Of a DNA stretch of 64,000 nt, positions 35,989 through 60,622 are shown one piece after another. The notes beneath the pieces are model-generated. The model made no database searches, was not told the origin of the DNA, and worked only from the letters and a program-made list of their open reading frames with translations. This stretch comes from Micromonospora sp. NBC_01813 (GTDB lineage Bacteria; Actinomycetota; Actinomycetes; Mycobacteriales; Micromonosporaceae). A program made the position numbers and the translations under genes. The first letter of the stretch is position 1. Every line of letters begins with the position of its first letter. Where the stretch lies: positions 870,501 through 934,500 of the forward strand of contig NZ_CP109067.1 of NCBI RefSeq assembly GCF_035917335.1, in the 5' to 3' direction.

Positions 35989-38900
35989 ATGAGTACTGCA
36001 CTCGACATGCGTGACCTGGTGATCGCCTACAACCCATGCGGCGAGATCGAGCCGGGTCCACGCGTTGCCAGCGCCGTCCGACGTGGCGGCGGCATCGGCG
36101 TCCTCGACCTGGCCACTGGGGACGCCCGGACAATGCGCGCGATGGAGCAGCTGATCAGCTGGTCAGCCGAGCCGATCGCGGTCCGGGTCCCGGCGAACTG
36201 TCAGGCCACCATCGACGACGTCGAGCGAATCGCCGCAGGACACATCGAGCTCGTGGTGGTGGCCGGTGAACTCCCCTGGGACCTGCGCGACCTGGTGACG
36301 CGGTACCGCGTACTCGCAGAAGTCACCAGCCTCGCGGCGGCCCGCGCCGCCGCGACGGCCGGGGTGCACGGCCTGATCGCCCGCGGCATGGAGTCCGGCG
36401 GCGAGGTCGGCGAGCTCAGCACCTTCGTTCTCGTGCAGCAACTCACCGGGTCTGACCTGGGCCTACCGGTCTGGGCACTGGGCGGTGTCGGCCCGCACAC
36501 CGCAGCGGCCTGCGTCACCGGTGGCGCCGCCGGCGTCGTACTGGACAGCCAACTCGCCCTGATGCCGGAGTCGGACCTGCCGGCCGACGTCCTGGCCACC
36601 ATCCGCCGGATGGACGGCTCGGAGAGCGTGCTCGCCGATGGCTTCCGGGGGACTCCCCGGATGATGCGCCCGCCGGGCGCGACCAGCGCGCCCACCCGCG
36701 CCGAACTGCTCCCCGTCGGTCAGGACGGCTGGCTCGCCGCCGAGTTCAGCAGACGCTGGGCCGACACCGCCGCCGCGGTACGCGGTATCCGTGCCGCGAT
36801 CGTCGACGCGGCGACCGACGCCGACGCCGCTGCCGCACTGCAGCCCGCCGCGCCGCTGGCCAGGGATTTGGGGCTGCGGGTGCCGGTCGCCCAGGGCCCG
36901 ATGACCCGGGTCAGCGACGAGGCCGGCTTCGCCGCCGCGGTCGCCGCCGATGGCGCCCTGCCGTTCATCGCCCTGGCACTGGCCACCGCCGAACGCACCG
37001 AGGAGATGCTCACCGACACCGCCGCCCGCCTCGGCGACCGGCCCTGGGGTGTCGGTGTCCTGGGCTTCGCGCCGGAGGAGATCCGGCTCGCCCAGTTGGA
37101 GGTCATCAGGCGGGTCAAGCCAGCGGTCGCGATCATCGCCGGCGGCCGGCCATCGCAGGCCAAGGAGCTCGAACGGGACGGGATTCGCACCTTCCTGCAT
37201 GTGCCCTCACCCGGGCTGCTGAGGCAGTTCCTGCGCTCCGGTGCACGTCGGTTCATCTTCGAAGGCGCCGAGTGTGGGGGCCACATCGGCCCCCGGGCCA
37301 GCTTCCCGCTGTGGGAGGCGCAGCTGACGATCCTCGCCGAACACCTCGACAGCGTCCCGCCCGAGCAGGCCGCCGAGGTGCAGATCTTCTTCGCCGGTGG
37401 CGTCCACGACGACCGGTCGGCCGCCATGATCGCCACCTTGGCCGCACCGATGACCCGTCGGGGCGTACGGGTCGGCCTGCTGATGGGTACCGCCTACCTG
37501 TTCACCGGGGAGGCCGTCGCCCACGGTGCGATCCAACCGGCGTTCGCCCGGATGGCCCGGGAATCGACCCGGACCGCCCTGCTGGAGACCGCGCCGGGAC
37601 ACGTCACCCGATGCCTGCAGAGCAACTTCGTGGACGACTTCCACGCGCTGCGCGCCGAACTGGAAGTCGCCGGGCTCGAGAACCGACAGGTGTGGGAGCA
37701 CCTGGAACTGCTCAACGTCGGCCGGCTGCGGATCGCCAGCAAGGGTCGTCGGCGCGACGGCGACGCCCTGATCGACGTGGACGAGTCGACCCAGCTCAGC
37801 GAGGGCCTGTTCATGGCTGGCCAGGTCGCGGTGCTGCGTGACGCCGAGACCACCATCGCGGCGTTGCACCGTTCGGTCACCGAGGAAGCGGTCACCTTCC
37901 ACACCGAGCGGTCCGGGACACTGCGTGCCGCCTGGACCCCACCCGAACCGCAGGAGCAGGCTGCCCCACTGGACATCGCCATCGTCGGGATGGCCTGCAT
38001 CCTGCCCAACTCGCCCGACCTGGCGGCGTTCTGGCGCACCGTCCTGGACAGCGCCGACGCGGTCACCGAGGTGCCGTCGCACCGGTGGGACCCGGACATC
38101 TACTACGCCCCCGAGGTGGGGCCCGGACAGGCCGGCCGGATCAGCGTCTCGAAATGGGGTGGGTTCCTCGCCCAGGTGCCGTTCGACGCCATCGGGTACG
38201 GAATTCCGCCATCGGCCCTGGCCAGCATCGACCCGACCCAGCTGCTGGCCCTCGAAGTCTCCCAGCGGGCCCTACGCGACGCCGGCTACGCCCCGGGACG
38301 CGACGGCGCCGACCACTCCCGTACCGGCGTGATCTTCGGCGCCGAGGCCGGCAGCGACATGGGTCATGCCCAGACCCTGCGGACGATGCTGCCCGCGTAC
38401 CTCGCGGACGTGCCGGAGGAGTTGACCGACCAACTGCCCACGGTCACCGAGGACTCGTTCCCCGGGATCCTCGCCAACGTCATCGCCGGACGGGTCGCCA
38501 ACCGGCTCGACCTCGGTGGACCCAACTACACGGTCGACGCGGCCTGCGCGTCGTCGCTGGCCGCGATGGACGCGGCCTGCAAGGAGCTCGCCTCCGGTGG
38601 CAGCGATCTGATGATCTGTGGTGGCGCCGACCTGCACAACGGCATCAACGACTTCCTGATGTTCACCTCGGCGCACGCGCTCTCGCCGACCGGCCGCTGC
38701 CGCTCGTTCGACAGCACCGGTGACGGAATCGCCCTCGGCGAGGGCGTCGCCGCCGTGGTCCTGAAGCGGCTGTCCGACGCGGAGCGCGACGGCGACCGGA
38801 TCTACGCGGTGATCAAAGGACTCGGCGGATCCAGCGACGGGCGAGCCCTGGGCCTGACCGCGCCCCGCGCGGAGGGCCAGCGGCGGGCACTGGACCGGGC

Positions 38901-41900
38901 GTACCGGCAGGCAGGCGTGTCCCCGGCGCAGGTCGGCCTGGTCGAGGCGCACGGCACCGGCACCGTCGTCGGTGACCGGACCGAGCTGGAGACGCTGACC
39001 ACGGTGTTCAGCGAGGCGGGCGCCGCGCCCGGCAGCTGCACCCTGGGCTCGGTCAAGTCGCAGATCGGCCACACCAAGTGCGTCGCCGGCCTGGCCGGAC
39101 TGATCAAGGCCGCGATGTCGTTGTACACCGGGATCCGGCCGCCCACCCTGCACCTGACCCGACCCAACCCGGCCTGGCATCCCGACCGCAGCCCGTTCGC
39201 CTTCTACACGCAGGCCCGTCCCTGGGCGGCGCCGGCCAGTGAGCGGATCGCCGGGGTGAGCGCCTTCGGCTTCGGCGGCACCAACTTCCACGCGGTGCTC
39301 GGTGCGTACGCCAACGCACCGGAGCCCCGGCACGCCCGCGACGAGTGGCCGGCCGAGCTGTTCTGCTTCAAGGCCGGCGACCGGGCCGGAGCCCACCAGA
39401 CGATCCGGTCGCTGCTGGCCACGATCGACACCCGCGACGTGCTCGGCCGGCGCTGGCGGCTGCGGGACCTCGCCGCTGGGCAGTCCCGGCAGGCCGAGAC
39501 CCGGTCCGGTCCGGTGCAGGTCGCCGTCGTCGCCGGTGACCTCGACGAACTCGCCGGCCTGCTGAGGCGCGCTCTCGCCGGCGAACACGACCCGGCGACC
39601 GGGCTGTACCAACCCGCTGCCGCCGCCGAAGCCGGTGGCAAGGTCGCCTTCCTCTTCCCCGGCCAGGGAAGCCAACGGCCGGGTGCTCTCGCCGAGCTGT
39701 TCGTCAGCTTCCCCGAGCTTCGCCGGTTCCTCGACGTCGGCCGCGACTTCGTCGATCCGCTGTTCCCGCCGGCGGCGTTCGACCCCGACCACGACCGCGG
39801 CCAGCAGGAGCGGGTCCGCGACACCCGGATCGCCCAACCGGTGCTGGGCATCGGTGGTCTGGCCATGCACCATCTGCTCGGCCGGCTCAACGTGCGGCCG
39901 GAGCTGGCTGGCGGGCACAGCTACGGCGAGCTGGTGGCGCTCAGCGTCGCCGGTGCCTTCGACGAGCGCACCCTGCTCGCGCTGAGCCGTGCGCGGGCGG
40001 AGGCGATCCTCGCCGCCGCCGGTGCCGATCCCGGGACGATGGCGGCGGTCGCCGGCACCGCGCAACAAATCAGCGGTGTGCTCTCCGATGCCGGGCTGTC
40101 CGACGAGGTGGTACTGGCCAACCACAACGGTCCGCAGCAGGTGGTCATCTCCGGGCCGACCGTGGCGGTACGCCGGGCGGTGACCGTGCTCAAGGAGAAC
40201 GGACTGTCCGCCCGTTCGATTCCGGTGGCCTGCGCGTTCCACAGTCCCGTGGTGGCTGGTGGCGTGGCGACCTTCCGGGAGATCCTGGCCGGCTACCCGG
40301 TCGCTGCCCCCGCCGTGCCGGTCTGGTCCAACCGGACCGCCCAGCCCTACCCGACCGGGTCGGACGAGGTACGCGACGAACTCGCCGGTCAGATCGGTGC
40401 CCCGGTCAAGTTCGTGGACCAGATCGAGGCGATGTACGCCGCCGGCGCCCGGATCTTCGTCGAGGCCGGCCCGGGACAGGTGCTGACCCGGCTGGTGGAG
40501 ACGGTCCTGGCCGACCGACCCCACCTGGCGGTCGCCGTCGAGGGCCGGCGCTCAGGTGGCCTGCGGGGGTTCCTGTCCGCCATCGCCGAGTTGGCCTGTG
40601 CCGGGGTACCGGTGCAGACCAGTTGGCTCTTCCACGGCCGGCAGACCGCCGAGGTCGTCCCGGCGGCACCATCGTCGCGGCCGATCTGGACGGTTGACGG
40701 CCAGCTGGTACGCGACCAGCATGGCCGGCCGCTGCCCGGCGGTATGACGCCTCCCCGACAAATCAAGGAGTTGTCGATGACTGCATCCACCGAGACCGGC
40801 AACGGCCACGGCCCCGGCCTGGCCCATGGCAATGGCAATGGCGTCGCCCACGGTGGCGCAGTCGCCAACGGCAACGGCGTCGCGCACGGCAATGGCAACG
40901 GTGGCGGCGTCGCGCACGGCAATGGCAACGGTGGCGGCGTCGCGCACGGTGCCAGCATCGCCCACAGTGGCGGCCCTGCCCACGGCAACGGCAACGGTGC
41001 CGGCCGGGACAGCCGAGACGATCTGATCAGCGAGTTTCTCCGGACCAGCCGAGAGCTGATCGCCTCCCAACGCGACGTCATGTTGGCGTACTTCGGTGAG
41101 CGGCCGGTTGCTGGCAACGGGTGGACCTCGTCCGATGTGTACCCGTCGGTCGTGGCGCAGCCCGCGATAGCCGCGCAGCGCGCATACGTCGGGGAGATCG
41201 TCCCGGCGGGGCCAGATTCTCCGGCAACGGGTGACGTGCCGGCGGCAGTCGAGCCGGCTGCTCCTTCCAGCCCCACACAGGTTGACCACCCCGCTTCCAC
41301 CGCGGCCGCAGTTTCGGTCGTTCCAGCTCCGGTAGCTCCGGTAGCTCCGGTAGCTCCGGTCGCGCCGGTTGCGGTTGCGGTGGCCGCTCCGGCTCCGGCT
41401 CCTGTCGCGGTGGCCGCTCCGGTCGCGGCGACGGTGACGACCACTGTCGCGGTGCGTCCGTCGGTGGACATGGCGCAGTTCCAGGATGCGATTTTGGCGG
41501 TGTTGAGTGAGCGGACCGGGTATCCGGTGGATTTGATTGAGCTTGATTTGGATCTTGAGGCGGATCTGAGTATTGATTCGATCAAGCGGGCTGAGGTCGC
41601 TGGTGAGGTGGCGACGCGGTTGCGGTTGTCGGTGGATGGTGACGAGGCGGAGTTGGAGGATCTGGTTCGGGCTCGGACGGTGCGGACGATGGTGGCGTGG
41701 TTGGTCGAGAAGATGGCGGCCGATCAGTCGGTGAGTGCGCCGTCTGCTGTGGCGGCGGTGGCCGCTCCGGCTCCGGCTCCTGTCGCGGTGGCGGCCCCGG
41801 TCGCGGCGACGGTGACGACCACCGTCGCGGTGCGTCCGTCGGTGGACATGGCGCAGTTCCAGGATGCGATTTTGGCGGTGTTGAGTGAGCGGACCGGGTA

Positions 41901-44085
41901 TCCGGTGGATTTGATTGAGCTTGATTTGGATCTTGAGGCGGATCTGAGTATTGATTCGATCAAGCGGGCTGAGGTCGCTGGTGAGGTGGCGACGCGGTTG
42001 CGGTTGTCGGTGGATGGTGACGAGGCGGAGTTGGAGGATCTGGTTCGGGCTCGGACGGTGCGGACGATGGTGGCGTGGTTGGTCGAGAAGATGGCGGCCG
42101 ATCAGTCGGTGAGTGCGCCGTCTGCTGTGGCGGCGGTGGCCGCTCCGGCTCCGGCTCCTGTCGCGGTGGCGGCCCCGGTCGCGGCGACGGTGACGACCAC
42201 CGTCGCGGTGCGTCCGTCGGTGGACATGGCGCAGTTCCAGGATGCGATTTTGGCGGTGTTGAGTGAGCGGACCGGGTATCCGGTGGATTTGATTGAGCTT
42301 GATTTGGATCTTGAGGCGGATCTGAGTATTGATTCGATCAAGCGGGCTGAGGTCGCTGGTGAGGTGGCGACGCGGTTGCGGTTGTCGGTGGATGGTGACG
42401 AGGCGGAGTTGGAGGATCTGGTTCGGGCTCGGACGGTGCGGACGATGGTGGCGTGGTTGGTCGAGAAGATGGCGGCCGATCAGTCGGTGAGTGCGCCGTC
42501 TGCTGTGGCGGCGGTGGCCGCTCCGGCTCCGGTCCCTGTCGCGGTGGCCGCTCCGGTCGCGGCTGCGGCCCCGCCGGTCGTGGTCGTACCCGCGTCACCG
42601 GCGGTGCCATCCACCCCCGCTGGGCCGAGCGGCGGGGTCGCTCCGCGCCGACTCGTCGCACAGCAGGTGCCGGCCACCGGTGCGGTCGTCGCGCCGGAAG
42701 CGCTCTCCGGCGCCCGATTCCTGATCACCGGCGGCTCACCAGTCCTGGCGCAGCTCGCCGAACGCCTCGCCCAGCACGGCGCGGCCGGCACCACCGGTTC
42801 GATTGACGGCGGCGGGTCGGACCAGCCGGCCGGCTACGACGGTGTGATCATCCTGGACGGGCTGAGCGACAGCGGCGGCCCGCTGCTACCCGAGATCTTC
42901 CCGTTCATCCAGCGGGCGCTCGCCGCCGGCGTCCGGTGGCTGGTCGCCGCCGGCACCAGCGGGCCGCGGACCGACGGCTTCGCCGGCCTGTTCCGTACCA
43001 TCAGCCGCGAATACCCGCAGGTGTCGGTGAGCTATGTGGAGGTACCGCAGGCGGACGACCGGAGTCAGCTCGCCGCCGACCTCGTCACCGAACTGCTCAG
43101 CGGCGGTCAGACGCCGATCGTCACCTGGTCGGCATCCGGCCGGCACACCGTCGATCTGGCCCCGGTCGCTCTCGGCGCACTGGCCGCCGGCGGTGCCGGG
43201 CCGGCCGGTGACGGCGTCGCCGAGGTCCAGGCGATCGGGCTCGATCAGGACTCGGTGGTGGTCCTCGTCGGTGGTGCCCGAGGCATCACGCCGTGGTTCG
43301 CCCGTACCCTGGCCGCGGCGAGCCGGTGCCGGATCGAACTGGTCGGGCGTACCCCGCTGCCTGAGCAACCGGAGTCTGCGGCGTTGGCCGCCGCGAGCGA
43401 CAAGCCGGCACTGCGGGCCGCCCTGGTGGCGCAGGGGATGCGCGCACCCGCCGAGATCGACCGGATGGCCAACGCGATCCTGGCGGCGCGGGAGGTCCGC
43501 GCCACCCTGGCTGAGCTTCGAGAGTTCGGCAGCCAGGTGCGCTACCACAGCGTCGACGTCAGCGACGCCGAGGCGACCCGGCAACTGATCAAGAACATCC
43601 ACGGCGAGTACGGACGCATCGACGGTCTGGTCTACGCGGCCGGGCGGATCGAGGACAAGCTGATCGCCGAGAAGGACCCGGAATCGTTCACCCGGGTCTT
43701 CCAGACCAAGGTGCAGGGGGCGGCGACGGTGCTCGACGCCCTGCCGGACGGAACGAAGCCGCGCTTCGTGGTCCTCTTCGGCAGCATCGCGGCCGCGTAC
43801 GGCAACCGAGGGCAGAGCGACTACGCCGCCGCCAACGATGCGCTCGACCGGCTCGGCGGCCGGTGGGCGGCCGGTTCCGGAGTCCGCTGTCTGACCGTGC
43901 ACTGGGGGCCATGGGCACCGGGATCGGTGCATGGCGGCATGGTCAGCGCCGAACTCAGCCGGGAGTATGCCCGCCGCGGCATCGAGTTGATCGACCCCGA
44001 GGAAGGGGCGCTGAGTCTGCTGCGCGAGCTGGCCTGGGGTGACCCGGCGGTCGCGTCGGTGGTCTACACCGCCTCCGGGTGGTGA
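35989..44085 (+). CDS. Iterative type I PKS, PUFA-synthase-like (NMO-NMO-KS-AT-ACPx3-KR)
   Basis: A 2698-residue multi-domain enzyme that elongates and reduces an acyl chain. Order: a degenerate nitronate-monooxygenase-like half (about 1-250), a full NMO/PfaD-like enoyl-reductase domain (about 285-620; EGAECGGHIGPRAS), KS (662-1105; active Cys about 853 in DAACASS, EAHGTGT, IGHTKCVAG), AT (1218-1510; Ser about 1311 in GHSYGE), a Gly/His/Asn-rich linker, three ACPs with Ser in LSIDSIKR at about 1864, 1990 and 2116, and KR (structural half from 2240, catalytic GGARGITPW at about 2424, with YAAANDAL). The closest described logic is PfaA fused to PfaD. It overlaps the second PKS gene in a GTGA junction. 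The product cannot be predicted. Confidence 0.9.
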   Translation: MSTALDMRDLVIAYNPCGEIEPGPRVASAVRRGGGIGVLDLATGDARTMRAMEQLISWSAEPIAVRVPANCQATIDDVERIAAGHIELVVVAGELPWDLRDLVTRYRVLAEVTSLAAARAAATAGVHGLIARGMESGGEVGELSTFVLVQQLTGSDLGLPVWALGGVGPHTAAACVTGGAAGVVLDSQLALMPESDLPADVLATIRRMDGSESVLADGFRGTPRMMRPPGATSAPTRAELLPVGQDGWLAAEFSRRWADTAAAVRGIRAAIVDAATDADAAAALQPAAPLARDLGLRVPVAQGPMTRVSDEAGFAAAVAADGALPFIALALATAERTEEMLTDTAARLGDRPWGVGVLGFAPEEIRLAQLEVIRRVKPAVAIIAGGRPSQAKELERDGIRTFLHVPSPGLLRQFLRSGARRFIFEGAECGGHIGPRASFPLWEAQLTILAEHLDSVPPEQAAEVQIFFAGGVHDDRSAAMIATLAAPMTRRGVRVGLLMGTAYLFTGEAVAHGAIQPAFARMARESTRTALLETAPGHVTRCLQSNFVDDFHALRAELEVAGLENRQVWEHLELLNVGRLRIASKGRRRDGDALIDVDESTQLSEGLFMAGQVAVLRDAETTIAALHRSVTEEAVTFHTERSGTLRAAWTPPEPQEQAAPLDIAIVGMACILPNSPDLAAFWRTVLDSADAVTEVPSHRWDPDIYYAPEVGPGQAGRISVSKWGGFLAQVPFDAIGYGIPPSALASIDPTQLLALEVSQRALRDAGYAPGRDGADHSRTGVIFGAEAGSDMGHAQTLRTMLPAYLADVPEELTDQLPTVTEDSFPGILANVIAGRVANRLDLGGPNYTVDAACASSLAAMDAACKELASGGSDLMICGGADLHNGINDFLMFTSAHALSPTGRCRSFDSTGDGIALGEGVAAVVLKRLSDAERDGDRIYAVIKGLGGSSDGRALGLTAPRAEGQRRALDRAYRQAGVSPAQVGLVEAHGTGTVVGDRTELETLTTVFSEAGAAPGSCTLGSVKSQIGHTKCVAGLAGLIKAAMSLYTGIRPPTLHLTRPNPAWHPDRSPFAFYTQARPWAAPASERIAGVSAFGFGGTNFHAVLGAYANAPEPRHARDEWPAELFCFKAGDRAGAHQTIRSLLATIDTRDVLGRRWRLRDLAAGQSRQAETRSGPVQVAVVAGDLDELAGLLRRALAGEHDPATGLYQPAAAAEAGGKVAFLFPGQGSQRPGALAELFVSFPELRRFLDVGRDFVDPLFPPAAFDPDHDRGQQERVRDTRIAQPVLGIGGLAMHHLLGRLNVRPELAGGHSYGELVALSVAGAFDERTLLALSRARAEAILAAAGADPGTMAAVAGTAQQISGVLSDAGLSDEVVLANHNGPQQVVISGPTVAVRRAVTVLKENGLSARSIPVACAFHSPVVAGGVATFREILAGYPVAAPAVPVWSNRTAQPYPTGSDEVRDELAGQIGAPVKFVDQIEAMYAAGARIFVEAGPGQVLTRLVETVLADRPHLAVAVEGRRSGGLRGFLSAIAELACAGVPVQTSWLFHGRQTAEVVPAAPSSRPIWTVDGQLVRDQHGRPLPGGMTPPRQIKELSMTASTETGNGHGPGLAHGNGNGVAHGGAVANGNGVAHGNGNGGGVAHGNGNGGGVAHGASIAHSGGPAHGNGNGAGRDSRDDLISEFLRTSRELIASQRDVMLAYFGERPVAGNGWTSSDVYPSVVAQPAIAAQRAYVGEIVPAGPDSPATGDVPAAVEPAAPSSPTQVDHPASTAAAVSVVPAPVAPVAPVAPVAPVAVAVAAPAPAPVAVAAPVAATVTTTVAVRPSVDMAQFQDAILAVLSERTGYPVDLIELDLDLEADLSIDSIKRAEVAGEVATRLRLSVDGDEAELEDLVRARTVRTMVAWLVEKMAADQSVSAPSAVAAVAAPAPAPVAVAAPVAATVTTTVAVRPSVDMAQFQDAILAVLSERTGYPVDLIELDLDLEADLSIDSIKRAEVAGEVATRLRLSVDGDEAELEDLVRARTVRTMVAWLVEKMAADQSVSAPSAVAAVAAPAPAPVAVAAPVAATVTTTVAVRPSVDMAQFQDAILAVLSERTGYPVDLIELDLDLEADLSIDSIKRAEVAGEVATRLRLSVDGDEAELEDLVRARTVRTMVAWLVEKMAADQSVSAPSAVAAVAAPAPVPVAVAAPVAAAAPPVVVVPASPAVPSTPAGPSGGVAPRRLVAQQVPATGAVVAPEALSGARFLITGGSPVLAQLAERLAQHGAAGTTGSIDGGGSDQPAGYDGVIILDGLSDSGGPLLPEIFPFIQRALAAGVRWLVAAGTSGPRTDGFAGLFRTISREYPQVSVSYVEVPQADDRSQLAADLVTELLSGGQTPIVTWSASGRHTVDLAPVALGALAAGGAGPAGDGVAEVQAIGLDQDSVVVLVGGARGITPWFARTLAAASRCRIELVGRTPLPEQPESAALAAASDKPALRAALVAQGMRAPAEIDRMANAILAAREVRATLAELREFGSQVRYHSVDVSDAEATRQLIKNIHGEYGRIDGLVYAAGRIEDKLIAEKDPESFTRVFQTKVQGAATVLDALPDGTKPRFVVLFGSIAAAYGNRGQSDYAAANDALDRLGGRWAAGSGVRCLTVHWGPWAPGSVHGGMVSAELSREYARRGIELIDPEEGALSLLRELAWGDPAVASVVYTASGW
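40765..40779 (+). promoter_or_regulatory. Internal in-frame ribosome site and ATG inside the PKS
   Basis: A perfect AAGGAG (40765-40770) is followed after six bases by an in-frame ATG (40777), which is Met1597 of the synthase, exactly in the linker between AT and the ACPs. It could be a relic of a gene fusion or an internal start for an ACP-KR protein. Confidence 0.55.
40800..41010 (+). repeat. Gly/Asn/His-rich linker repeats
   Basis: Low-complexity coding repeats (AHGNGNGGGV units). Two exact 30-bp copies lie at 40876-40905 and 40906-40935, with a partial third from 40936, producing a flexible linker. Confidence 0.8.
41380..42535 (+). repeat. Three near-identical 378-bp ACP repeats
   Basis: Units start at 41380, 41758 and 42136 with a fourth partial linker at 42514. 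They differ by only a few bases in the Pro/Ala linker; the ACP cores appear identical. The cores use T-ending and TTG codons (gattttggcggtgttg, ttgattgagcttgatttg), unlike the rest of the gene. Confidence 0.9.
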
Positions 44086-48893: not shown

Positions 48894-48927
48894 AAATGCC
48901 GCAACCTGTCCCGACAAGGAGACCCGC

Positions 48928-49254
48928 ATGCCTGCCGACCACGACACCATCCTGGCGGAGATTTCGCAGATGCTCCGCGCGGTGCTCCCCGGCATCGATC
49001 CGGACGAGGAGATCACCGTGGACACCAGCTTCCGTGACGACCTTGAGATGGAGAGCATCGACGTGATCTCACTCGCCGGGCGGCTACAGGCCCGGTACGG
49101 CGAATCAGTCAACTTCGCCCAGTACGTCGCCGCACTCGACGTGGAGTCGTTGCGCGGCCTGCGGGTGGGCGAACTGACCGAGCACATCGCGACGTCGCTG
49201 GACCGGGCGCCGGTGTCGGGCTCGGCGGCACCGGTGCCGGTGGCCGGCCAGTGA
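48928..49254 (+). CDS. Discrete acyl carrier protein
   Basis: A 108-residue free-standing ACP with the attachment Ser in FRDDLEMESIDVISLAG (helix II), plus a Pro/Ala-rich tail. It may carry a starter unit, accept the finished chain from the synthase, or hold it for the adjacent hydrolase or sulfotransferase. A longer frame from 48640 exists but overlaps the PKS; the ATG at 48928 has an AAGGAG site seven bases upstream. Its stop overlaps the hydrolase start by four bases, so the two are coupled. Confidence 0.9.
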   Translation: MPADHDTILAEISQMLRAVLPGIDPDEEITVDTSFRDDLEMESIDVISLAGRLQARYGESVNFAQYVAALDVESLRGLRVGELTEHIATSLDRAPVSGSAAPVPVAGQ

Positions 49255-50126
49255 CCATGGTCCGGGCGAACGGCGTGGCGATGCACGTCCAGCAGTTGGC
49301 GCCGGACGATCCGCCGGCCGACCAGCTGGCCGGCGACGCCTCCCGTACGGGTCCGCCGACCGCGGTTCTGATTCACGGCATCGCGACCGACAACCTGGCG
49401 AGCTGGTACCTCAGCCTGGCGTACCCGCTGGCCTCGGCCGGGTTCCGGGTCGTCATGTACGACCTGCGCGGCCATGGCCGCAGCGACCGCCCGCCGACCG
49501 GATACCGGGTGGACGACCTGGTCGACGACCTCGCCGCGCTCCTCGACGAACTGGGGATCGCCGGACCGGTGCATCTGTTGGGCAACTCGCTCGGCGGCAC
49601 CATCGCCTTCGGCTACGCGGTCCGTCATCCGGGCCGGGTCGCGTCGATCGTGGCGGTGGAGGCGGCACCGGCAACGACGCGGTGGCTCACCCGGATCCGT
49701 CGCCAACTGGCCGCCGCACTCGGTCCGACCCGCCCGGCGGCCGCGCCCGGCGGGCCCGGTGCCCGATACCTGACGGCGCTACGGAACCTCGTCGCCACCA
49801 CGAGTGCCGGCCAGGATCTGCCGGCCAGCACGCCGCTGGCCGCGGCGGATCTGCACGCGATCGACTGTCCGGTGCTCGGCGTGTTCGGCAGCGAGTCCGC
49901 CGCCGCCGACCTCGCGCCGTCGCTGGTGCACCTGCTGCCCCAGGCCCGGGTGGTGGTGATCCAGGGACACCGGCACGCGGTGCTGGTCACCGGGCGTGAC
50001 CAGGTGCGAGATCAGGTCCTGCCCTGGCTGCTCGACCAGCTCGGCTCCGGTCCCGGCCCGACCCCGGGCGGCAGCCCGGCCGGCGCCAGCGCCGATCCAG
50101 CAGGCATGGCCGTTCCGCGACGTTGA
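49251..50126 (+). CDS. Alpha/beta hydrolase, probable chain-releasing thioesterase
   Basis: A 291-residue cytosolic alpha/beta hydrolase with the oxyanion motif IHGIATDN, LRGHGRSD, nucleophile elbow GNSLGG and catalytic His in GHRHAV. No signal peptide. Its position, coupled by GTGA overlap to the free ACP gene directly after the synthase, suggests a stand-alone thioesterase that releases or edits the polyketide. The reading frame could instead start at ATG 49257. Its C-terminal 25 residues are Pro/Gly-rich and dispensable-looking. Confidence 0.8.
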   Translation: MTMVRANGVAMHVQQLAPDDPPADQLAGDASRTGPPTAVLIHGIATDNLASWYLSLAYPLASAGFRVVMYDLRGHGRSDRPPTGYRVDDLVDDLAALLDELGIAGPVHLLGNSLGGTIAFGYAVRHPGRVASIVAVEAAPATTRWLTRIRRQLAAALGPTRPAAAPGGPGARYLTALRNLVATTSAGQDLPASTPLAAADLHAIDCPVLGVFGSESAAADLAPSLVHLLPQARVVVIQGHRHAVLVTGRDQVRDQVLPWLLDQLGSGPGPTPGGSPAGASADPAGMAVPRR

Positions 50127-50154
50127 CGCAGTCGTCTCTCCTCAGGAGGTTCAG

Positions 50155-51117
50155 ATGCACACCGAAGATCCCGGCCGGGCGATCATCATCAGCAGTGGCC
50201 GCTGCGGTTCGACGCTACTGTCCGATCTGATCGTCGAGGAGCCGGAGACCCTGTCCGTGCAGGAGTTCGTCATGGCCACTCCGTCGTGGGCGAAAGCCGG
50301 TGGAGCGATCACCGGGGCGGCGTACTGGCAGGTGCTGAGCAGCCCGAAGCCGGAGCTGGCCACCCTGTTCGCCATCGGGCTGCCGCCCAAGGAGGTCCGC
50401 TACCCGACGAACGGCCGCTGGTCCGACCGGCTGGAGCAGCTCCCGCAGTTGCTGGCGATCACCTTGCCCAAGCTCACCGACGATCCTGACGCGCTCTTCG
50501 ACGAACTCGCCACCAAGGTGCCGGACTTCCCGGAGCAGTCGTTCTCCGCCCACCACCGGATGCTGCTCGACCTGATCACCCGGTTGACCGGCAAGCGGCG
50601 CTGGGTTGAGCGCTCCGGCGGGTCCAGCCAGGTCGCCCCGTACCTGTTGCGCTCCTTCCCCGACGCGCGGATCGTCTACCTGACCCGGAACTGGCCCGAT
50701 ACGGCCCGGTCGATGAGCCGCCACCCGTCGTTCCAGCTCATCCAGCTGCGTCTGGAGTTCGTGTCCCGGTGCGGGGTCGACCCGTTCCAGCCGAATTCGG
50801 ACCAGCAGGTGCCGGCGGAGCTTGAGCATCTGCTGCCGGGTCGGATCACCGCCGACCTGTTGCGTGAACGCGGCGCGGACAGCACCCGATACCTCGGGTT
50901 GTGCGCGTTCATGGCCGCCCAGGCCGAGCAGGCGCTGGTCGACAACCCGCCGACGCACCTGCTGACCATGACCTACGAGGACCTGGTCGCCGACCCGGTG
51001 CCGGAGCTGATCCGCCTCGGCGAGTTTCTGGAGTTCGCCGACCCGTCCGGCTGGGCGCAGCAGGTCGCCGGCCGAGTCAGTAAAGGCGGCGCGGTGCGGC
51101 AGACCGCCGCTGTCTGA
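50155..51117 (+). CDS. Sulfotransferase (PAPS-dependent family)
   Basis: A 320-residue soluble enzyme of the sulfotransferase superfamily. The N-terminal 5'-phosphosulfate-binding loop is SSGRCGSTLLSDLI, and the 3'-phosphate-binding region shows IVYLTRNWPDTARSMSRH. The substrate is probably a hydroxyl made by the PKS or a sugar or lipid head group. The frame opens at 49996 inside the hydrolase gene; the ATG at 50155 has an AGGAGG site five bases upstream. It is the only clear tailoring gene of the cluster. No adenylyl-sulfate kinase is encoded nearby, so PAPS would come from central metabolism. Confidence 0.85.
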   Translation: MHTEDPGRAIIISSGRCGSTLLSDLIVEEPETLSVQEFVMATPSWAKAGGAITGAAYWQVLSSPKPELATLFAIGLPPKEVRYPTNGRWSDRLEQLPQLLAITLPKLTDDPDALFDELATKVPDFPEQSFSAHHRMLLDLITRLTGKRRWVERSGGSSQVAPYLLRSFPDARIVYLTRNWPDTARSMSRHPSFQLIQLRLEFVSRCGVDPFQPNSDQQVPAELEHLLPGRITADLLRERGADSTRYLGLCAFMAAQAEQALVDNPPTHLLTMTYEDLVADPVPELIRLGEFLEFADPSGWAQQVAGRVSKGGAVRQTAAV

Positions 51118-51171
51118 TTCAGGTACGTACCACCCGCACCGGTTCAACATAGTAGAGGGAGAGAACGGTTG

Positions 51172-52995
51172 ATGCGTAGGTTGCGCCCATTCGCGAGTCG
51201 GTCGGTAGCCGCCGCCGTACTTGCTGGGCTGCTCCTGATGGCCGGTCCGGCCATTGCGGCACCGGTCGCCGGCGCCGATCCGGCTGCCGGCACCGACGGC
51301 GGGCACGGCGGGCACGGCGGCGAGCTTCGGCACGAGAGGACCCTGCTGGCGAAGGCCCCGCTCGACGAGTGCTTCGTCGACATCGGCATCGACTATCCGG
51401 CCGGACCACCGTGCGAGGCCGGACAGGCGAAGGTCAACCAGTCGTACGTCTGGGGGCTCACCCGGCACAAGCACCGCCTGTGGTTCGGCACCGGGGCCAA
51501 CATCAACTGCATGACCAGCGGCAACAACCTGCGCAACACCACCCCGACCCGCAATGACGACTGGGTCTGCGAGTACGGCCAGAGCCAGATTGCCCGGCGC
51601 AACCCCCAACTGCCGGCGACCCTCGGTGACCATCGCACCCCACGGCTCTACACGTACGACACGAAGAGCCGGCAGATGGTCGAACGCACCGACGTGGTCC
51701 GCGCCGCCTCACCGGACGACGCCAACCGGTTGAGCACCACCGCCGGCATCCGGGCGGCCGGCAACCACCGGGGCGTGGTGCTGTTCGGCGGTCCCGCACT
51801 CGGCGCCACGCTCAATCTGTTCGCGTTCGACGCCGACACCGGTGCCTTCCTCGGCTCGCGCAACTACGCGGAGTACGGCAACATCCGGCACTTCCTCGTC
51901 GCGGACGGCGAGCTCTACACCGGCGTCGGGGTGGGCCCCAACGGTGGCGAGCGTGGTCTCGTGCTGCGCTGGACGGGCAGCAAGTCCAACCCGTTCAGCT
52001 TCACCGAGGTGGCGAACCTCCCGGCGCAGGCGGTGGACCTCGCCGCCCACCAGGGCCGGATCTACGTCACCACCTGGGTCGGCGCGGAGGCCGCGGTGGC
52101 CATGGCGAGCGCCGGCCCGGTGTCACCCACCGCCGACATCGCCGACGCGCCGACCGCCGACGACCCGGTCCCGCCGAACGTCGCCGGGGTCTGGATGAGT
52201 CCGAAGCTGTCCGACAACGGGCCCGGGCTCGACAGCCGCGACGCGGACGGGTGGACCCGGGTGTGGAGCGTGCTGGACTACGAGCCGGACCCGATCGTCG
52301 CCCGGACGTACGGCCTGGGCGGCCTCGCCTCGTACAACGGCAAGCTCTACTGGGGCACCATGCATGTACCGCTCAAGTCGACCACCGTGCATCTGACGGT
52401 CTACCCACCCGCCGACGAGCAGGGGATCCGCGACTCGGTCCGCAACACCCAGCGGGCGATCGGCATCTTCCGGGGCAGCTTCCAGGGCCACGATCAGCAG
52501 GTCGACCTGCTCTACGGGGCGCCACAGCTACCCGCCTACGACCCGGCGGCCAACGACGGCGCGGGGCAGTGGGTCACCACGCCGACCGGCTACACCCCGT
52601 TGTACGGGCCGTCCGGATTCGGCAACCCGTTCCTGAACTACACCTGGAAGATGGTGGTGGCCGGCGGTCGGCTCTACGTCGGCACCATGGACTGGTCGTA
52701 CCTGGCCAAGGAACTGGATCAGTCGGAGTCCGTGCCGGCTGCGGCCGACGAGGAGTCGGACTTCGGCGCTGATCTGTACGTCTTCGAGTCCACCAGCAAG
52801 CCGGCGACGGCCGTGGACACCACCGGTCTCGGCAACTACCTCAACTACGGGGTCCGCAGCATGGTGGTGGACGGCAGCACGGTATACATCGGAACGGCCA
52901 ACCCGATGAATCTGCGGACAGATCTGACCGACGATGTCCCGGAGGGCGGTTGGGAGTTGCTCAAGTTGACCCCGAAGCACCACCACCATCACTAA
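51172..52995 (+). CDS. Secreted beta-propeller-like protein with His-rich ends
   Basis: A 607-residue exported protein: twin-Arg-free signal peptide (about 1-30), then HGGHGGHGG near the mature N-terminus. The body carries repeated strands ending in LYxGT/WGT motifs (GELYTGVGVG, GKLYWGTMH, GRLYVGTMDW, STVYIGTANP), the pattern of a beta-propeller. It ends in five natural His residues. Four Cys in the N-terminal quarter could form disulfides. The function is unknown; binding or carrying the cluster product, or metal binding, is speculation. The ATG at 51172 follows an AGAGGGAG site; the TTG one codon earlier is the alternative. It sits between the sulfotransferase and esterase genes on the same strand, 54 and 16 bp away. 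Confidence 0.7.
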   Translation: MRRLRPFASRSVAAAVLAGLLLMAGPAIAAPVAGADPAAGTDGGHGGHGGELRHERTLLAKAPLDECFVDIGIDYPAGPPCEAGQAKVNQSYVWGLTRHKHRLWFGTGANINCMTSGNNLRNTTPTRNDDWVCEYGQSQIARRNPQLPATLGDHRTPRLYTYDTKSRQMVERTDVVRAASPDDANRLSTTAGIRAAGNHRGVVLFGGPALGATLNLFAFDADTGAFLGSRNYAEYGNIRHFLVADGELYTGVGVGPNGGERGLVLRWTGSKSNPFSFTEVANLPAQAVDLAAHQGRIYVTTWVGAEAAVAMASAGPVSPTADIADAPTADDPVPPNVAGVWMSPKLSDNGPGLDSRDADGWTRVWSVLDYEPDPIVARTYGLGGLASYNGKLYWGTMHVPLKSTTVHLTVYPPADEQGIRDSVRNTQRAIGIFRGSFQGHDQQVDLLYGAPQLPAYDPAANDGAGQWVTTPTGYTPLYGPSGFGNPFLNYTWKMVVAGGRLYVGTMDWSYLAKELDQSESVPAAADEESDFGADLYVFESTSKPATAVDTTGLGNYLNYGVRSMVVDGSTVYIGTANPMNLRTDLTDDVPEGGWELLKLTPKHHHHH

Positions 52996-53011
52996 CAGAA
53001 GCAGGTGAGCG

Positions 53012-54022
53012 ATGTCGCGGTATCGGCGCCGGTTGGCGGTCCTGGTCACGGGGGGTGTCCTCGGGGCACTTGTCACGGGCTGCACATCGGCGCCGGACCC
53101 GGCGCCGCGTACGTCGGCCGGGGATCCGCCGTCGATCGACGGCGGATCCGTCGGCCCCGGACCGGCCGCGCCGCCGGTGGGGTCGTCGGCGCAGGGCATC
53201 ACCGTCGACGGCTACGACCGGACCTACCGGGTGTACCGACCGGCCGACCTGCCGTCGGACGGCCCGGTGCCGCTGGTGGTCATGTTGCACGGTCTGCTTG
53301 GCAGCGGTGAGCAGGCAGAGTCCTGGTACGGATGGAACGCCGCCGCGGACTCCGCCGGATTCGTCGTCGCGTACCCGGACTCGCGGAACCGGGCCTGGGC
53401 GGTGTCGGAGGAATGCTGCGGTGTGTCGGCGCGCGACGGGATCGACGACACCGCGTTCGTGGCGGCGGTCGTCGAGTCGCTCAGCGGTCAACTGCCGGTG
53501 GATCCGCGCCGGACCTATGTGGCCGGCATCTCCAACGGTGGCATGCTCGCCTACCGGCTGGCCTGCGACACGTCGATCTTCGCCGCGGTCGTCGCCGTGT
53601 CGGCGACGATGCTCGGGGACTGCCCGGCACCCGAACCGATCTCGGTGCTGCACATCCACGGCACCGCCGACGAGACGATCCCGTACACCGGGGGACCGGG
53701 CCGGTGGGACGGTGCCGGCCGCGACGGGGTACCGGGCACCGTCGACGGACCGCCCGTACCGGACCTGGCGCAGCGCTGGCGGCAGATCGACCAGTGCGCG
53801 GCTCCGCAGACCAGCACCGAGGCGACCGTCACCACGGCTGCCGCCAGCTGCCCCGATGGCCGAGCGGTCACGCTGATCACCATCGACGGCGCGGGGCACC
53901 AGTGGCCCGGCTCCCGCCAGCGGGCCGCCGGCCGGCTGCTCGGGCTGGACCGACCCGCCACCGAGTTGGACGCCACCGCCACCGGCTGGCAGTTCTTCGC
54001 CTCCCATCCCAGACCCGCCTGA
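53012..54022 (+). CDS. Lipoprotein esterase of the PHB-depolymerase/LpqC family
   Basis: A 336-residue extracellular lipoprotein with lipobox LVTGC (Cys about 24) and an alpha/beta-hydrolase domain of the poly-hydroxybutyrate-depolymerase-like (feruloyl esterase, LpqC) group. The motifs are MLHGLLGSGEQAESW, nucleophile GISNGGM, acid HGTADETIPYTGG and His in IDGAGHQWPG, so it is catalytically complete. It may hydrolyse an ester on the cell surface, perhaps of the exported lipid. It follows the secreted propeller gene by 16 bp and precedes the ABC transporter by 14 bp, so all are likely cotranscribed. Confidence 0.8.
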   Translation: MSRYRRRLAVLVTGGVLGALVTGCTSAPDPAPRTSAGDPPSIDGGSVGPGPAAPPVGSSAQGITVDGYDRTYRVYRPADLPSDGPVPLVVMLHGLLGSGEQAESWYGWNAAADSAGFVVAYPDSRNRAWAVSEECCGVSARDGIDDTAFVAAVVESLSGQLPVDPRRTYVAGISNGGMLAYRLACDTSIFAAVVAVSATMLGDCPAPEPISVLHIHGTADETIPYTGGPGRWDGAGRDGVPGTVDGPPVPDLAQRWRQIDQCAAPQTSTEATVTTAAASCPDGRAVTLITIDGAGHQWPGSRQRAAGRLLGLDRPATELDATATGWQFFASHPRPA

Positions 54023-54036
54023 TCAGGAGAGGCCAG

Positions 54037-55293
54037 ATGTCGAGTACCGGCACCCAACCGATGATCGACGGCTCCACGACCGCCACACCACCGCCGACCG
54101 AGCACCAGGCCGGCGCCGTGCCGGCAGTGGAGGTCGTCGACCTGGTGAAACGCTATCCGGGGCAGGACGTGAACGCGATCGACGGGCTCTCCTTCGCGGT
54201 GCGGCCGGGAGAGGTGCTCGGCCTGCTCGGGCCGAACGGTGCCGGCAAGTCCACCACGGTCGGCGTACTCACCACCACGATCCGGGCGACATCGGGCACC
54301 GCGCAGGTGGACGGGGTGGACGTGTCCCGCCACCCGGTGGTAGCCCGGACCCGGTTCGCCGTCGTGCCGCAGTACAACAACCTGGACCGGTCGCTGACCC
54401 CGCGTCAGAACCTGCTCTATCACGCCGCCTACCACGGGGTACGGCGCGCCGAGCGGCAGGACCGGGCGCAGCGGCTGTTGACCGAGTTCGGTCTGGACCG
54501 GCAGGCCGACTCGCGGGTCGACTTCTTCTCCGGCGGGATGGCGCAGCGCCTGATGATCGCCCGCGCCTTGATGCACGACCCCCGGGTGCTCTTCCTCGAC
54601 GAGCCGACCAACGGACTGGAGCCGCAGGCCCGACTGCTGATCCGGACCCGGATCCGGCAGCTGCGCGAGCGGGGCGTCACGGTGGTGCTGACCAGTCACG
54701 AGATGGGCGAGGTCGCCGAGCTGGCGGATCGGGTGGCGATCGTCGACCACGGCCGGCTGCTCGCCCTGGACACGCCGGCCAGTCTGCTGCGCGGTCTTGC
54801 CGGGCGGGCGGTGCTCGACCTGACGGTACGACCCGGGCCGGGTGATGACGCGACCGGTCTGCTCGCCGCGCTCACCGGGCTCGACGGGGTGCGTACCGGC
54901 GAGGTCCGTGCGGGCGGTGAGGTCCGTGCGGGCGGTGAGCCGGCCGCCGGGCCGCGTCCGGCCGGTGCGGCTGGTGCCGGCCGCCCCGGGCTTGCGGCGC
55001 TCGCGGCCAATCCCGCCATCGCGGCGAAGATCGCCGCTGCCCGGTCCGATCCCCGGATGGCCGCGAAGATCGCCGCTGCCCGGTCCAACCCGCGCTTCGC
55101 CGAGCTGTTCGCGGCAGCCGGTCCGGCGGCCGAGGTCCGGCTCCGGTTGCAGCTGGACGCCGACCCGGCGGCGGTCCTCGGGCCGGCGCTGACCGTGTTG
55201 GCCGGACGCTCCGGCCAGCTGACCGACGTGCACATCGGCAAGCCGGGTCTGGAAGACCTGTTCCTCACCCTGACCGGCAAGGAGATCCGTTGA
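54037..55293 (+). CDS. ABC transporter ATP-binding protein, drug/lipid export type
   Basis: A 418-residue ATPase of the DrrA/NodI-like ABC-2 exporters: Walker A GPNGAGKSTT, signature SGGMAQRL, Walker B LFLDEPTNGLE, switch His in LTSHEM. The frame opens at 53332 as an antisense-free shadow of the esterase gene, so ATG 54037 (AGGAGA site) is chosen. After the nucleotide-binding domain there is an unusual Ala/Gly insert with two 13-residue copies around AAKIAAARS (39-bp period) and two EVRAGG copies (18-bp period), before a C-terminal DrrA-like domain. It overlaps the permease gene by four bases. Confidence 0.9.
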   Translation: MSSTGTQPMIDGSTTATPPPTEHQAGAVPAVEVVDLVKRYPGQDVNAIDGLSFAVRPGEVLGLLGPNGAGKSTTVGVLTTTIRATSGTAQVDGVDVSRHPVVARTRFAVVPQYNNLDRSLTPRQNLLYHAAYHGVRRAERQDRAQRLLTEFGLDRQADSRVDFFSGGMAQRLMIARALMHDPRVLFLDEPTNGLEPQARLLIRTRIRQLRERGVTVVLTSHEMGEVAELADRVAIVDHGRLLALDTPASLLRGLAGRAVLDLTVRPGPGDDATGLLAALTGLDGVRTGEVRAGGEVRAGGEPAAGPRPAGAAGAGRPGLAALAANPAIAAKIAAARSDPRMAAKIAAARSNPRFAELFAAAGPAAEVRLRLQLDADPAAVLGPALTVLAGRSGQLTDVHIGKPGLEDLFLTLTGKEIR

Positions 55294-56135
55294 GCACGAT
55301 CGACACGGCGTCGACCCCGTCGGTTTCCGCAGCTGGACTGCCCACCGTCGAGGCACGGCAGCGACCGCCGGTCGCACGGGCCTTCGGCGCCATTCTGCTG
55401 CGGGACCTCTTCGTCTCCGGCAAGGACATCTGGTTCGTCCTCGCCCAGGTCCTGTTGACTCCGCTGTTCATGTTGTTCGTCTTCACGCGGGTGTTGACCA
55501 TGCAGGGCATCGTGGGTGCTGGATTCGCGGACATCCTGCTGCCAGGTACGGTCGCGCTCGCCACCTTCACCACCTCCCTGCAGAGTGTGGCGGTGCCGTT
55601 GGTCAAGGAGTTCGGCTTTACCCGGGAGATCGAGGACCGGTTGCTGTCCCCGCTGCCGACCGCGCTGGTGGCGGTGGGCAAACTGGTCGTCGCCACGCTA
55701 CGCGGGTTGTTCGCGGCGGTGCTCGTCTATCCGCTGGGTGCCCTGGTGGTCGGCTCGGCGCCGGGTGACTGGTCGGCGCTGCCGTTGTCGTTGCTGGTGG
55801 TGCTGCTCACCGGGTGGGTGGGCGCAGCGTTGGGGATGACCCTGGCGACGGTGTTGCCGCTGCAACGCATCCAGGCCGCCTTCTCGCTGGTCGTCACTCC
55901 GATCATCTGGACCGGTTGCGTGCACTACCCGTGGCAACGGCTGGCGGAGATTCAATGGTTCCAGGTGGCCACGGCGGCCAATCCGATGACGTACGCGTCC
56001 GAAGCGTTGCGGGCGGCGATGGCCCCGCACGTGACCCATCTGCCGATCGCTCTGTGCCTGCTGGTCCTGACCGCCGTGGCCGTCGCCGCCACCGTCGCCG
56101 CGCTGCGTGCCTTCACCCGCCGGGCGGTCCGGTGA
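55290..56135 (+). CDS. ABC-2 type permease
   Basis: A 281-residue polytopic protein with about six helices, of the DrrB-like ABC-2 membrane family. It has a cytoplasmic start and the characteristic FTREIEDRLLSPLP segment following the second helix. It is the membrane partner of the preceding ATPase (TTGA overlap). The pair probably exports a hydrophobic compound, most simply the product of the upstream PKS. The start is TTG. Confidence 0.9.
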   Translation: MSTIDTASTPSVSAAGLPTVEARQRPPVARAFGAILLRDLFVSGKDIWFVLAQVLLTPLFMLFVFTRVLTMQGIVGAGFADILLPGTVALATFTTSLQSVAVPLVKEFGFTREIEDRLLSPLPTALVAVGKLVVATLRGLFAAVLVYPLGALVVGSAPGDWSALPLSLLVVLLTGWVGAALGMTLATVLPLQRIQAAFSLVVTPIIWTGCVHYPWQRLAEIQWFQVATAANPMTYASEALRAAMAPHVTHLPIALCLLVLTAVAVAATVAALRAFTRRAVR

Positions 56136-59852: not shown

Positions 59853-60622
59853 ACGTCGCCAGCGTTGGCGGCCTGCGGCAGTTCCCGTAGGTGTGCTTCC
59901 ATCTGCGCGCCGGTCAGCCAGCGGTCGAAGGTGAGCCGTTGGCTCTCGCCGAGCGCGACGTCGAATCGGTAGTCGCCGAGCGTGGCCAGCCGGCGCAGGC
60001 AACGTAGTGCGGTGTCGCGCTGGATGGTGGTGAACTCGAAGGACAGCGCGGGCACCGGGTCGTGTAGCCCGGCGAGGACGGCCTCCTCGAACCCCTCCAC
60101 GTCGATCTTGACGAACGCCGGCCGTCCGTGTTCGGCGACCAGGCTGGCGATGGTGGTGACCGGCACGTCGAGTTCGGCGTCCCACACCTGGTCGGACCAG
60201 CCGTTGGCGCCGTCGGCGGCCTCGACGAACTCCGCCGACGCGGTGGAGACGGTGGGGTTCGCGGAGTTGATGTACATCCGCACCGAGCCGACCGTGTCGC
60301 CGCAGGCCGCCTGCACCACCGACACGGCCGGGTCGTCGGCGTAGACGAGCCGCACCGCACGGGCGCACAACGGCTGCGGTTCCACCGCGACGACCCGGGC
60401 ACCGAGGCGCCGGAAGCTGCCCACCCGGTCGCCGACGTGCGCACCGATGTCGAAGACCAGGTCGCCCGGCCCGACGAACCGTCGATAGAGCAGGTCCATC
60501 GCGGTGTCGCGCGCGGCGTCGCCGTAGTAGAACTCCAGCGACCGGCGCAGCCCAGCGAGCTGGGGATCAGCGGCCAGCACCCGGGCCGCCACCGCCTGGC
60601 GCGGCTGCTCAGTTGCGGTCAT
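59819..60622 (-). CDS. FkbM-family SAM methyltransferase
   Basis: A protein of about 267 residues, a class I methyltransferase. The SAM loop is DIGAHVGDRVGSFRRLG, and the FkbM-specific motif VKIDVEGFEEAVLAGL is near the middle. Such enzymes commonly O-methylate sugars or peptides; the acceptor here is unknown. The start is ATG 60622, which overlaps the preceding gene of the minus-strand operon by 14 bp, so it belongs to the siderophore transcript. Methylation of a hydroxamate or carboxylate siderophore is a possible but unproved role. Confidence 0.8.
   Translation of the reverse strand: MTATEQPRQAVAARVLAADPQLAGLRRSLEFYYGDAARDTAMDLLYRRFVGPGDLVFDIGAHVGDRVGSFRRLGARVVAVEPQPLCARAVRLVYADDPAVSVVQAACGDTVGSVRMYINSANPTVSTASAEFVEAADGANGWSDQVWDAELDVPVTTIASLVAEHGRPAFVKIDVEGFEEAVLAGLHDPVPALSFEFTTIQRDTALRCLRRLATLGDYRFDVALGESQRLTFDRWLTGAQMEAHLRELPQAANAGDVYAVLLPARTR

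Follow-up and report, generated by a model that had tools for sequence, protein, structure and literature searches.

The window analyzed here is a 64,000-nt stretch of the Micromonospora sp. NBC_01813 genome, located at positions 870501-934500 of a 7.63-Mb contig, and the system in question is a candidate sulfolipid operon at 35989-56135 of the window. All of its genes were on the + strand, in the order polyketide synthase (PKS) subunits PKS1 and PKS2, acyl carrier protein (ACP), alpha/beta hydrolase, sulfotransferase (ST), secreted protein, lipoprotein esterase, and ABC-2 exporter (ATPase and permease). PKS1 and PKS2 overlapped by 7 nt, the ACP and hydrolase genes and the ATPase and permease genes overlapped by 4 nt each, and the remaining gaps were 14-51 nt long. 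The initial annotation had described a single coupled operon, which agreed with what was found at the locus; because relatives showed a recurrent gene order, the arrangement is not due to chance. Pfam and NCBIfam models detected a nitronate monooxygenase (NMO) region, ketosynthase (KS), acyltransferase (AT), PP-binding, and ketoreductase (KR) domains in PKS1, and KS, AT, PS-DH, and ACPS domains in PKS2. The downstream genes matched PP-binding, Abhydrolase, Sulfotransfer_3, a polyhydroxybutyrate (PHB)-type esterase, ABC_tran, and ABC2_membrane, with one unannotated protein between the sulfotransferase and the esterase.

PKS1 (35989-44085; 2698 aa) was composed of a FabK-like pseudo-enoyl reductase, a FabK-like enoyl reductase (ER), KS, AT, three ACP units, and KR. 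PKS2 (44079-48893; 1604 aa) was composed, by domain matches, of KS, AT, dehydratase (DH), and phosphopantetheinyl transferase (PPTase). Conservation of catalytic residues was scored across 39 aligned rows each of PKS1 and PKS2; one row, G037, was kept with gaps in several columns caused by its broken PKS readings. In the window, the first ER module was the only part of the synthase and its partners in which a checked catalytic residue was not intact. The KS (37972-39300; Cys853/His988/His1028), AT (39640-40542; Ser1311 in GHSYGE), and KR (43255-43917; Ser2599/Tyr2612/Asn2616) of PKS1, all placed by domain matches, kept each of these residues in 39/39 rows. The KS of PKS2 (44118-45488) had Cys218/His356/His395 intact in the alignment columns. 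Its Cys was found in 37/37 rows with a letter, and the second His was replaced by Arg in 1 of 38; since the Cys is kept, this KS is not a chain-length factor (CLF). The PKS2 AT (45975-46583) showed Ser658 in 38/38 rows with a letter, and the DH (47349-48122; PF14765, 1.4e-10) showed His1107 and Asp1264 in 37/37. The PPTase domain (48534-48725; ACPS, PF01648) carried the motifs GVGID and AAKE, with the Asp present in 35 of 37 PKS2 rows with a letter.

Two FabK-like modules made up the N-terminal 650 aa of PKS1, both far below the cut-off of TIGR03151 and with FabK and NMO structures as PDB matches. Module 1 (35989-36801) scored 5.5e-15 with matches to both structure types, and module 2 (36802-37938) scored 2.1e-24 with FabK as its best PDB match. 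At E 0.01, the matches of these modules included no PfaD family. Thus, the tandem arrangement proposed initially was confirmed, whereas the "NMO-like" and PfaD-like character was replaced by a FabK-like one. The proposed catalytic His of the ER lies in motif III, xEAGGH, according to the relevant passage of PMC13311796. Module 2 had ECGGH (His432), with the His in 38/38 rows with a letter. Module 1 lacked the His (E139 in the window), the position being E, R, K, L, W, or P in 38/38 rows with a letter. By analogy with the thraustochytrid ERb and ERc, described in the same source as dimerizing, module 1 may serve the ER as a structural partner.

The three tandem ACP units of PKS1 (41458-42591), recognized as sequence repeats, were 378 nt each; units 1 and 2 were identical (378/378 nt) and unit 3 matched at 359/378. 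The number of units differed among relatives (strict motif count), which, together with the identity of units 1 and 2, points to recent duplication or conversion. The stand-alone ACP (48928-49254; PP-binding match) carried its Ser in MESID; rows of at least 200 aa (G492) were left out of its motif count.

Relatives were located with the ER region, which was detected in 60 of 300 genomes of the family (E 1e-30) and in 10 of 396 genomes of the phylum (E 1e-60), eight of them outside the family. The contexts compared were the window, 30 places in 29 family genomes, and the eight phylum genomes outside the family. Of these 39 synthase-ACP-hydrolase contexts, 26 contained a close ST homologue, 12 contained a glycosyltransferase (GT; 5 in the family and 7 outside), none contained both, and one (G402) contained neither. 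The hydrolase was present in all 39. The ACP of the window detected an ACP in 38, that of G402 being found with other ACP queries only. The secreted protein and the esterase were found in all 26 ST contexts and were absent from the remaining 13; they were kept even in G078, G298b, and G092, where they were on the opposite side and strand. When all genes were grouped all against all, the only families missing from no more than one of the 26 ST contexts were PKS, ACP, hydrolase, ST, secreted protein, and esterase. In the 12 GT clusters, PKS1, PKS2, ACP, and hydrolase had the same order as in the window, whereas a GT replaced the ST. Two of the 12 GTs were identified by scan (TIGR01426 MGT below cut-off, EryCIII-like_C, and UDPGT) and the rest by similarity. 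Thus, the neighborhood comparison in Micromonosporaceae to which the initial annotation had pointed revealed a conserved synthase core followed by an ST or a GT.

In the PKS1 tree (aa 291-1561, 39 rows), the 26 ST rows formed a single clade (100/100) among GT rows; the four GT rows nearest to this group were joined at 82/43 only. Whether GT is the older state hinges on the rooting, here at the midpoint. Among the 300 family genomes, the synthase was detected in 60, a strong ST match in 51, a strong secreted-protein match in 50, and all three in 50. The Fisher value for this co-occurrence disregards kinship and is not taken as proof. The ten synthase-only genomes were G005 (1080 contigs, 69% complete) and nine others, of which five were of the GT type by context; the contexts of G055, G075, G225, and G237 were not fetched. 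Weak ST matches only were found in 15 further genomes (E 4e-44 to 5e-68), and weak secreted-protein matches only in four. In G253, G070, and G249 (L141, L142, and L143), distant STs (36-39% identity) had PKS-like stretches nearby that were not of this cluster kind, and the weak ST of G217 had no PKS-like stretch within 12 kb. A contig scan with the ST query found one relative.

The ST of the window (50155-51117) is, by its sequence, a PAPS (3'-phosphoadenosine 5'-phosphosulfate)-dependent enzyme of the Sulfotransfer_3 family (PF13469, 6.4e-13; 49.9 vs. 27 bits). The GRCGST loop, which is the 5'-phosphosulfate loop of PAPS-type sulfotransferases, was invariant in the 17 rows of the ST alignment (which held, besides the window, 16 of 25 relatives; nine were not located within one fetched stretch). 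The alpha/beta hydrolase (49251-50126) is a probable chain-releasing thioesterase with Ser111/Glu135/His240, numbered from the ATG two codons in. Its Ser and His were present in 37/37 usable rows, and the acid at +24 was Glu in 36 and Asp in 1. Two of the 39 rows (G060 and G034), in which the translated match passed a stop, were left out. The usual late acid was replaced by Ala, Ser, or Pro in 24/24 usable ST rows, whereas it was Asp or Glu in 11 of 12 GT rows.

This absence of the usual late acid, the Ser-Glu(+24)-His arrangement, and the adjacency of ACP, hydrolase, and ST would also suit offloading as in CurM or olefin synthases, in which the ST would sulfonate a beta-hydroxyl as a leaving group and the hydrolase would carry out a decarboxylative elimination, so that the product would be a terminal alkene devoid of sulfate. 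The CurM thioesterase reportedly uses a Glu at a similar place. The CurM thioesterase structure (3qit) was among the matches of the hydrolase (7.3e-9), and the ST profile weakly matched the CurM ST (E 0.005). However, the +24 acid was also found in the 13 rows with no ST (Glu in 12 and Asp in 1) and is therefore unlinked to sulfation. Many esterases and haloperoxidases scored better than 3qit, which fell beyond E 1e-20 of the hydrolase profile while four other structures were within it, and the glycopeptide enzymes Teg14 and Teg12 (see below) ranked above the CurM ST. In these comparisons, neither the hydrolase nor the ST was closer to the CurM enzymes than to other families. Moreover, a GT in the ST slot suits a hydroxyl that is retained, and genes for surface proteins make little sense for an alkene. 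We therefore rate alkene formation as improbable, and less likely than a product that keeps its sulfate.

Teg14 and Teg12, the best PDB matches of the ST profile, are glycopeptide sulfotransferases, and Sulfotransfer_3 enzymes differ in acceptor. These facts would fit an ST whose acceptor is a different partner, namely a sugar, a peptide, or an aromatic head group of other origin, to which the lipid is joined, the chain itself being unsulfated. The near-constant families of the ST contexts listed above, with other genes annotated in part, argue against such a partner, and we regard it as unlikely.

For a sulfated chain, supply of activated sulfate was examined in the relatives. The families behind the permease were CysQ (TIGR01331, below cut-off) and CysD and CysN (above cut-off); the family scans for CysQ, CysD, CysN, and TauE were of G003 only, the other contexts being assigned by similarity. 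Ten ST contexts outside the g30 genomes had at least one Cys gene: nine had CysD and CysN (G252 with no CysQ) and G037 had CysQ only. A gene for a TauE-family permease was found upstream in 10 contexts. CysD copies were counted in 26 genomes. These included eight of the nine genomes outside g30 with a cluster CysD (G298 excepted), and all eight had two full copies. G060, which is not one of these eight, had a second copy approximately 0.25 Mb from its cluster. A single copy was found in 17 genomes, including the window genome, four g30 genomes with the ST cluster, and six cluster-less genomes. The ordinary CysD locus was glmU-prs-rplY-pth-cysQDN in all six such loci read, and the cluster CysD of G003 was 94% identical to the ordinary one. 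One APS (adenosine 5'-phosphosulfate) kinase (E below 1e-50) was found in each of six genomes. The window genome had CysQDN and one APS kinase elsewhere. The exported, possibly sulfated lipid pathway of the initial annotation was thus strengthened by the cluster-borne CysQ, CysD, and CysN genes and the TauE-family permease of relatives, and the predicted product is probably sulfated and exported.

In five g30 contexts (L068/L069, L072-L077, and L094/L095), the ST cluster was flanked by a TetR gene on one side and by glmU on the other and lay in the usual neighborhood of cysQDN, which followed some kilobases downstream; the secreted protein was present there in two to three tandem copies.

The ~600-aa orphan protein (51169-52995) is probably secreted, a call based on the hydrophobic N-terminal run found by a simple scan in 31 of 33 rows. 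Besides the window row, its alignment included 23 of 32 further rows, five rows not having been located and four having been dropped as near-copies or odd readings. The window protein matched nothing in NCBIfam or the PDB, and nothing above cut-off in Pfam. A propeller fold had been proposed for it, for which the sole hint was a set of repeated strand-like motifs (seven in the window copy); a single-sequence AlphaFold2 model had a mean pLDDT of 30.5, and the assignment is at most tentative. A second copy was found outside the cluster at G000:C1:2112373-2114172 (L132 9400-11184), as well as in other genomes of that genus and of g4. In six regions with relatives of the protein outside the cluster, gene calling and BLAST names showed no common neighbor theme except between two regions of the same genus.

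The esterase (53012-54022), previously described as a lipoprotein, carried a lipobox-like motif and was further assigned to the extracellular short-chain-length polyhydroxyalkanoate (PHA) depolymerase type 1 family, scoring above the curated cut-off of NF050058 (175 vs. 150 bits). The motif was found in 26/26 rows with a loose regular expression applied without a control, at odd places in two. The family and the motif fit, rather than demonstrate, esters of 3-hydroxy acids as putative substrates. The exporter consisted of an ATPase (54037-55293; nearest model TIGR01188 DrrA, below cut-off) and a permease (55290-56135; ABC2_membrane).

We consider it likely that the operon encodes a pathway for a sulfate-ester lipid that is exported to the cell surface, with a hydroxy-acyl scaffold common to both branches and either an ST or a GT to tailor it. 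Judging from domain content, PKS1 and PKS2 would jointly form an iterative, Type M-like synthase with a built-in PPTase, and would build, on the tandem ACPs, an acyl chain that is reduced fully or in part. The chain, with at least one hydroxyl, would be passed to the separate ACP and released by the hydrolase. The ST would then add PAPS-derived sulfate to a chain hydroxyl; the alternation with GT comes from the comparison of clusters and the chemistry is predicted, the chain hydroxyl being taken as the acceptor because a GT fills the same slot in the other branch. We infer the sulfation site, the chain length, and the timing. Export of the product would be the task of the ABC-2 pair; at the cell surface, the secreted protein and the lipoprotein esterase may then handle the lipid or remodel it. 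In several relatives, the cluster contains sulfate-activation genes of its own.

Several observations weigh against this reading. The cluster of the window had no CysQDN, and neither did any of the seven contexts in its genus, where the ordinary set must therefore serve. The CysQDN linkage in g30 was rejected as evidence of recruitment, the locus there being the ordinary glmU-prs-rplY-pth one. The permease was present in 17 of the 26 ST contexts; thus, this exporter is not universal. G158 had a strong ST with no synthase or secreted-protein match, and 38 kb around it contained only ABC ATPases at 31-33%. G249, of the GT type, had its distant ST (37%), next to further PKS-like stretches, at approximately 12.6 kb upstream from the synthase, so that the mutual exclusion of ST and GT is limited to close homologues in the fetched contexts. 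The acceptor of the ST cannot be read from its sequence. Finally, the contexts are related by descent, and the counts are not independent.

A broader proposal, to which we give somewhat less than even weight, is that the ST clusters specify an undescribed class of actinomycete sulfolipids. It would have arisen by one ancestral glycosyl-to-sulfate switch on a Type M scaffold, with a dedicated PAPS supply, a new secreted ~600-aa family binding or displaying the sulfated lipid at the surface, and perhaps an esterase that trims 3-hydroxyacyl esters. Among open-licence papers, none was found that links a sulfotransferase to a secondary lipid synthase in actinomycetes. The sulfate is a concrete mass signature for a product search, and an orphan secreted protein family is tied to a lipid pathway in 50 of the 300 sampled family genomes.

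Elsewhere in the window, a single protein at 60609-63245 (- strand) combined a penicillin amidase (PF01804) and a GNAT domain (PF13523), and a protein of this group with the same length was present in six contexts of the same genus. A GH48 cellulase with CBM2 (22229-25114, + strand) was located beside a GH1 enzyme (19805-21334, - strand).

When the synthase was compared with known systems, TIGR02813 omega_3_PfaA was the top NCBIfam match of both PKS1 and PKS2, as would be expected of a polyunsaturated fatty acid (PUFA) synthase of the classic Pfa kind that makes an eicosapentaenoic acid-like membrane lipid and for which sulfation would be incidental. PKS1, however, scored below the PfaA cut-off (996.7 vs. 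1010.1 bits). The KS-CLF-DH2 arrangement of PfaC in classic (Type A) systems was not found: PKS2 had an active KS with Cys-His-His, one AT, and one DH, and no second KS-like domain was listed. Instead of a PfaD-family ER, only FabK (TIGR03151) was listed, below its own cut-off. The PUFA-like character proposed initially was thus abandoned, and a classic Pfa product is very unlikely. Enediyne PKSs are KS-AT-ACP-KR-DH-PPTase proteins on one polypeptide and were ruled out by the two polypeptides with two KSs and an ER. The CurM and olefin synthase systems share with the window a PAPS-type ST beside an ACP and a hydrolase with Ser-Glu-His, whereas here the genes are separate, the similarity is weak only, and surface and export genes are present.

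The synthase is best described as an iterative, Pfa-related, Type M-like lipid synthase, a predicted class based on the published layout and PPTase motifs and not on named Type M sequences. In the passages of PMC3098273 (Shulse and Allen 2011) that define the types, Type M includes Frankia, Actinosynnema, Renibacterium (R. salmoninarum), and S. avermitilis, is among the types with uncharacterized products, and shares with the other types up to T the PPTase motifs P1a, x(G/D)xP, and P1b', hShxH. The PKS2 motifs NGRP and LSLAH fit P1a and P1b', and the domain order is that of a fused ER-PfaA and a fused PfaBC with PPTase, the ER here being FabK-like. In its text description, PMC13291983 reports fused pfaDA and pfaBC with PPTase that resemble Renibacterium salmoninarum, with the fusion also in two Flavobacteriales. 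The layout of these Aquimarina/Flavobacterium hybrid clusters is the same as here, but their genes sit with PKS-NRPS (nonribosomal peptide synthetase) assembly lines, whereas no NRPS was seen here. Because the fusions of ER to subunit 1 and of PPTase to subunit 2 are already in print in these two sources, the layout is not new, although it had been considered unusual. The word sulfotransferase occurs 0 times in the main text of PMC13291983, and in the text of PMC3098273 the word glycosyltransferase is absent and the retrieved passages containing "sulf" are on other matters. With Type M products described there as uncharacterized, the two alternative head-group enzymes predict a glycolipid in one branch and a sulfolipid in the other. 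Thus, what looks new in comparison with these systems is the tailoring, an ST branch vs. a GT branch, on a synthase of an already known type.

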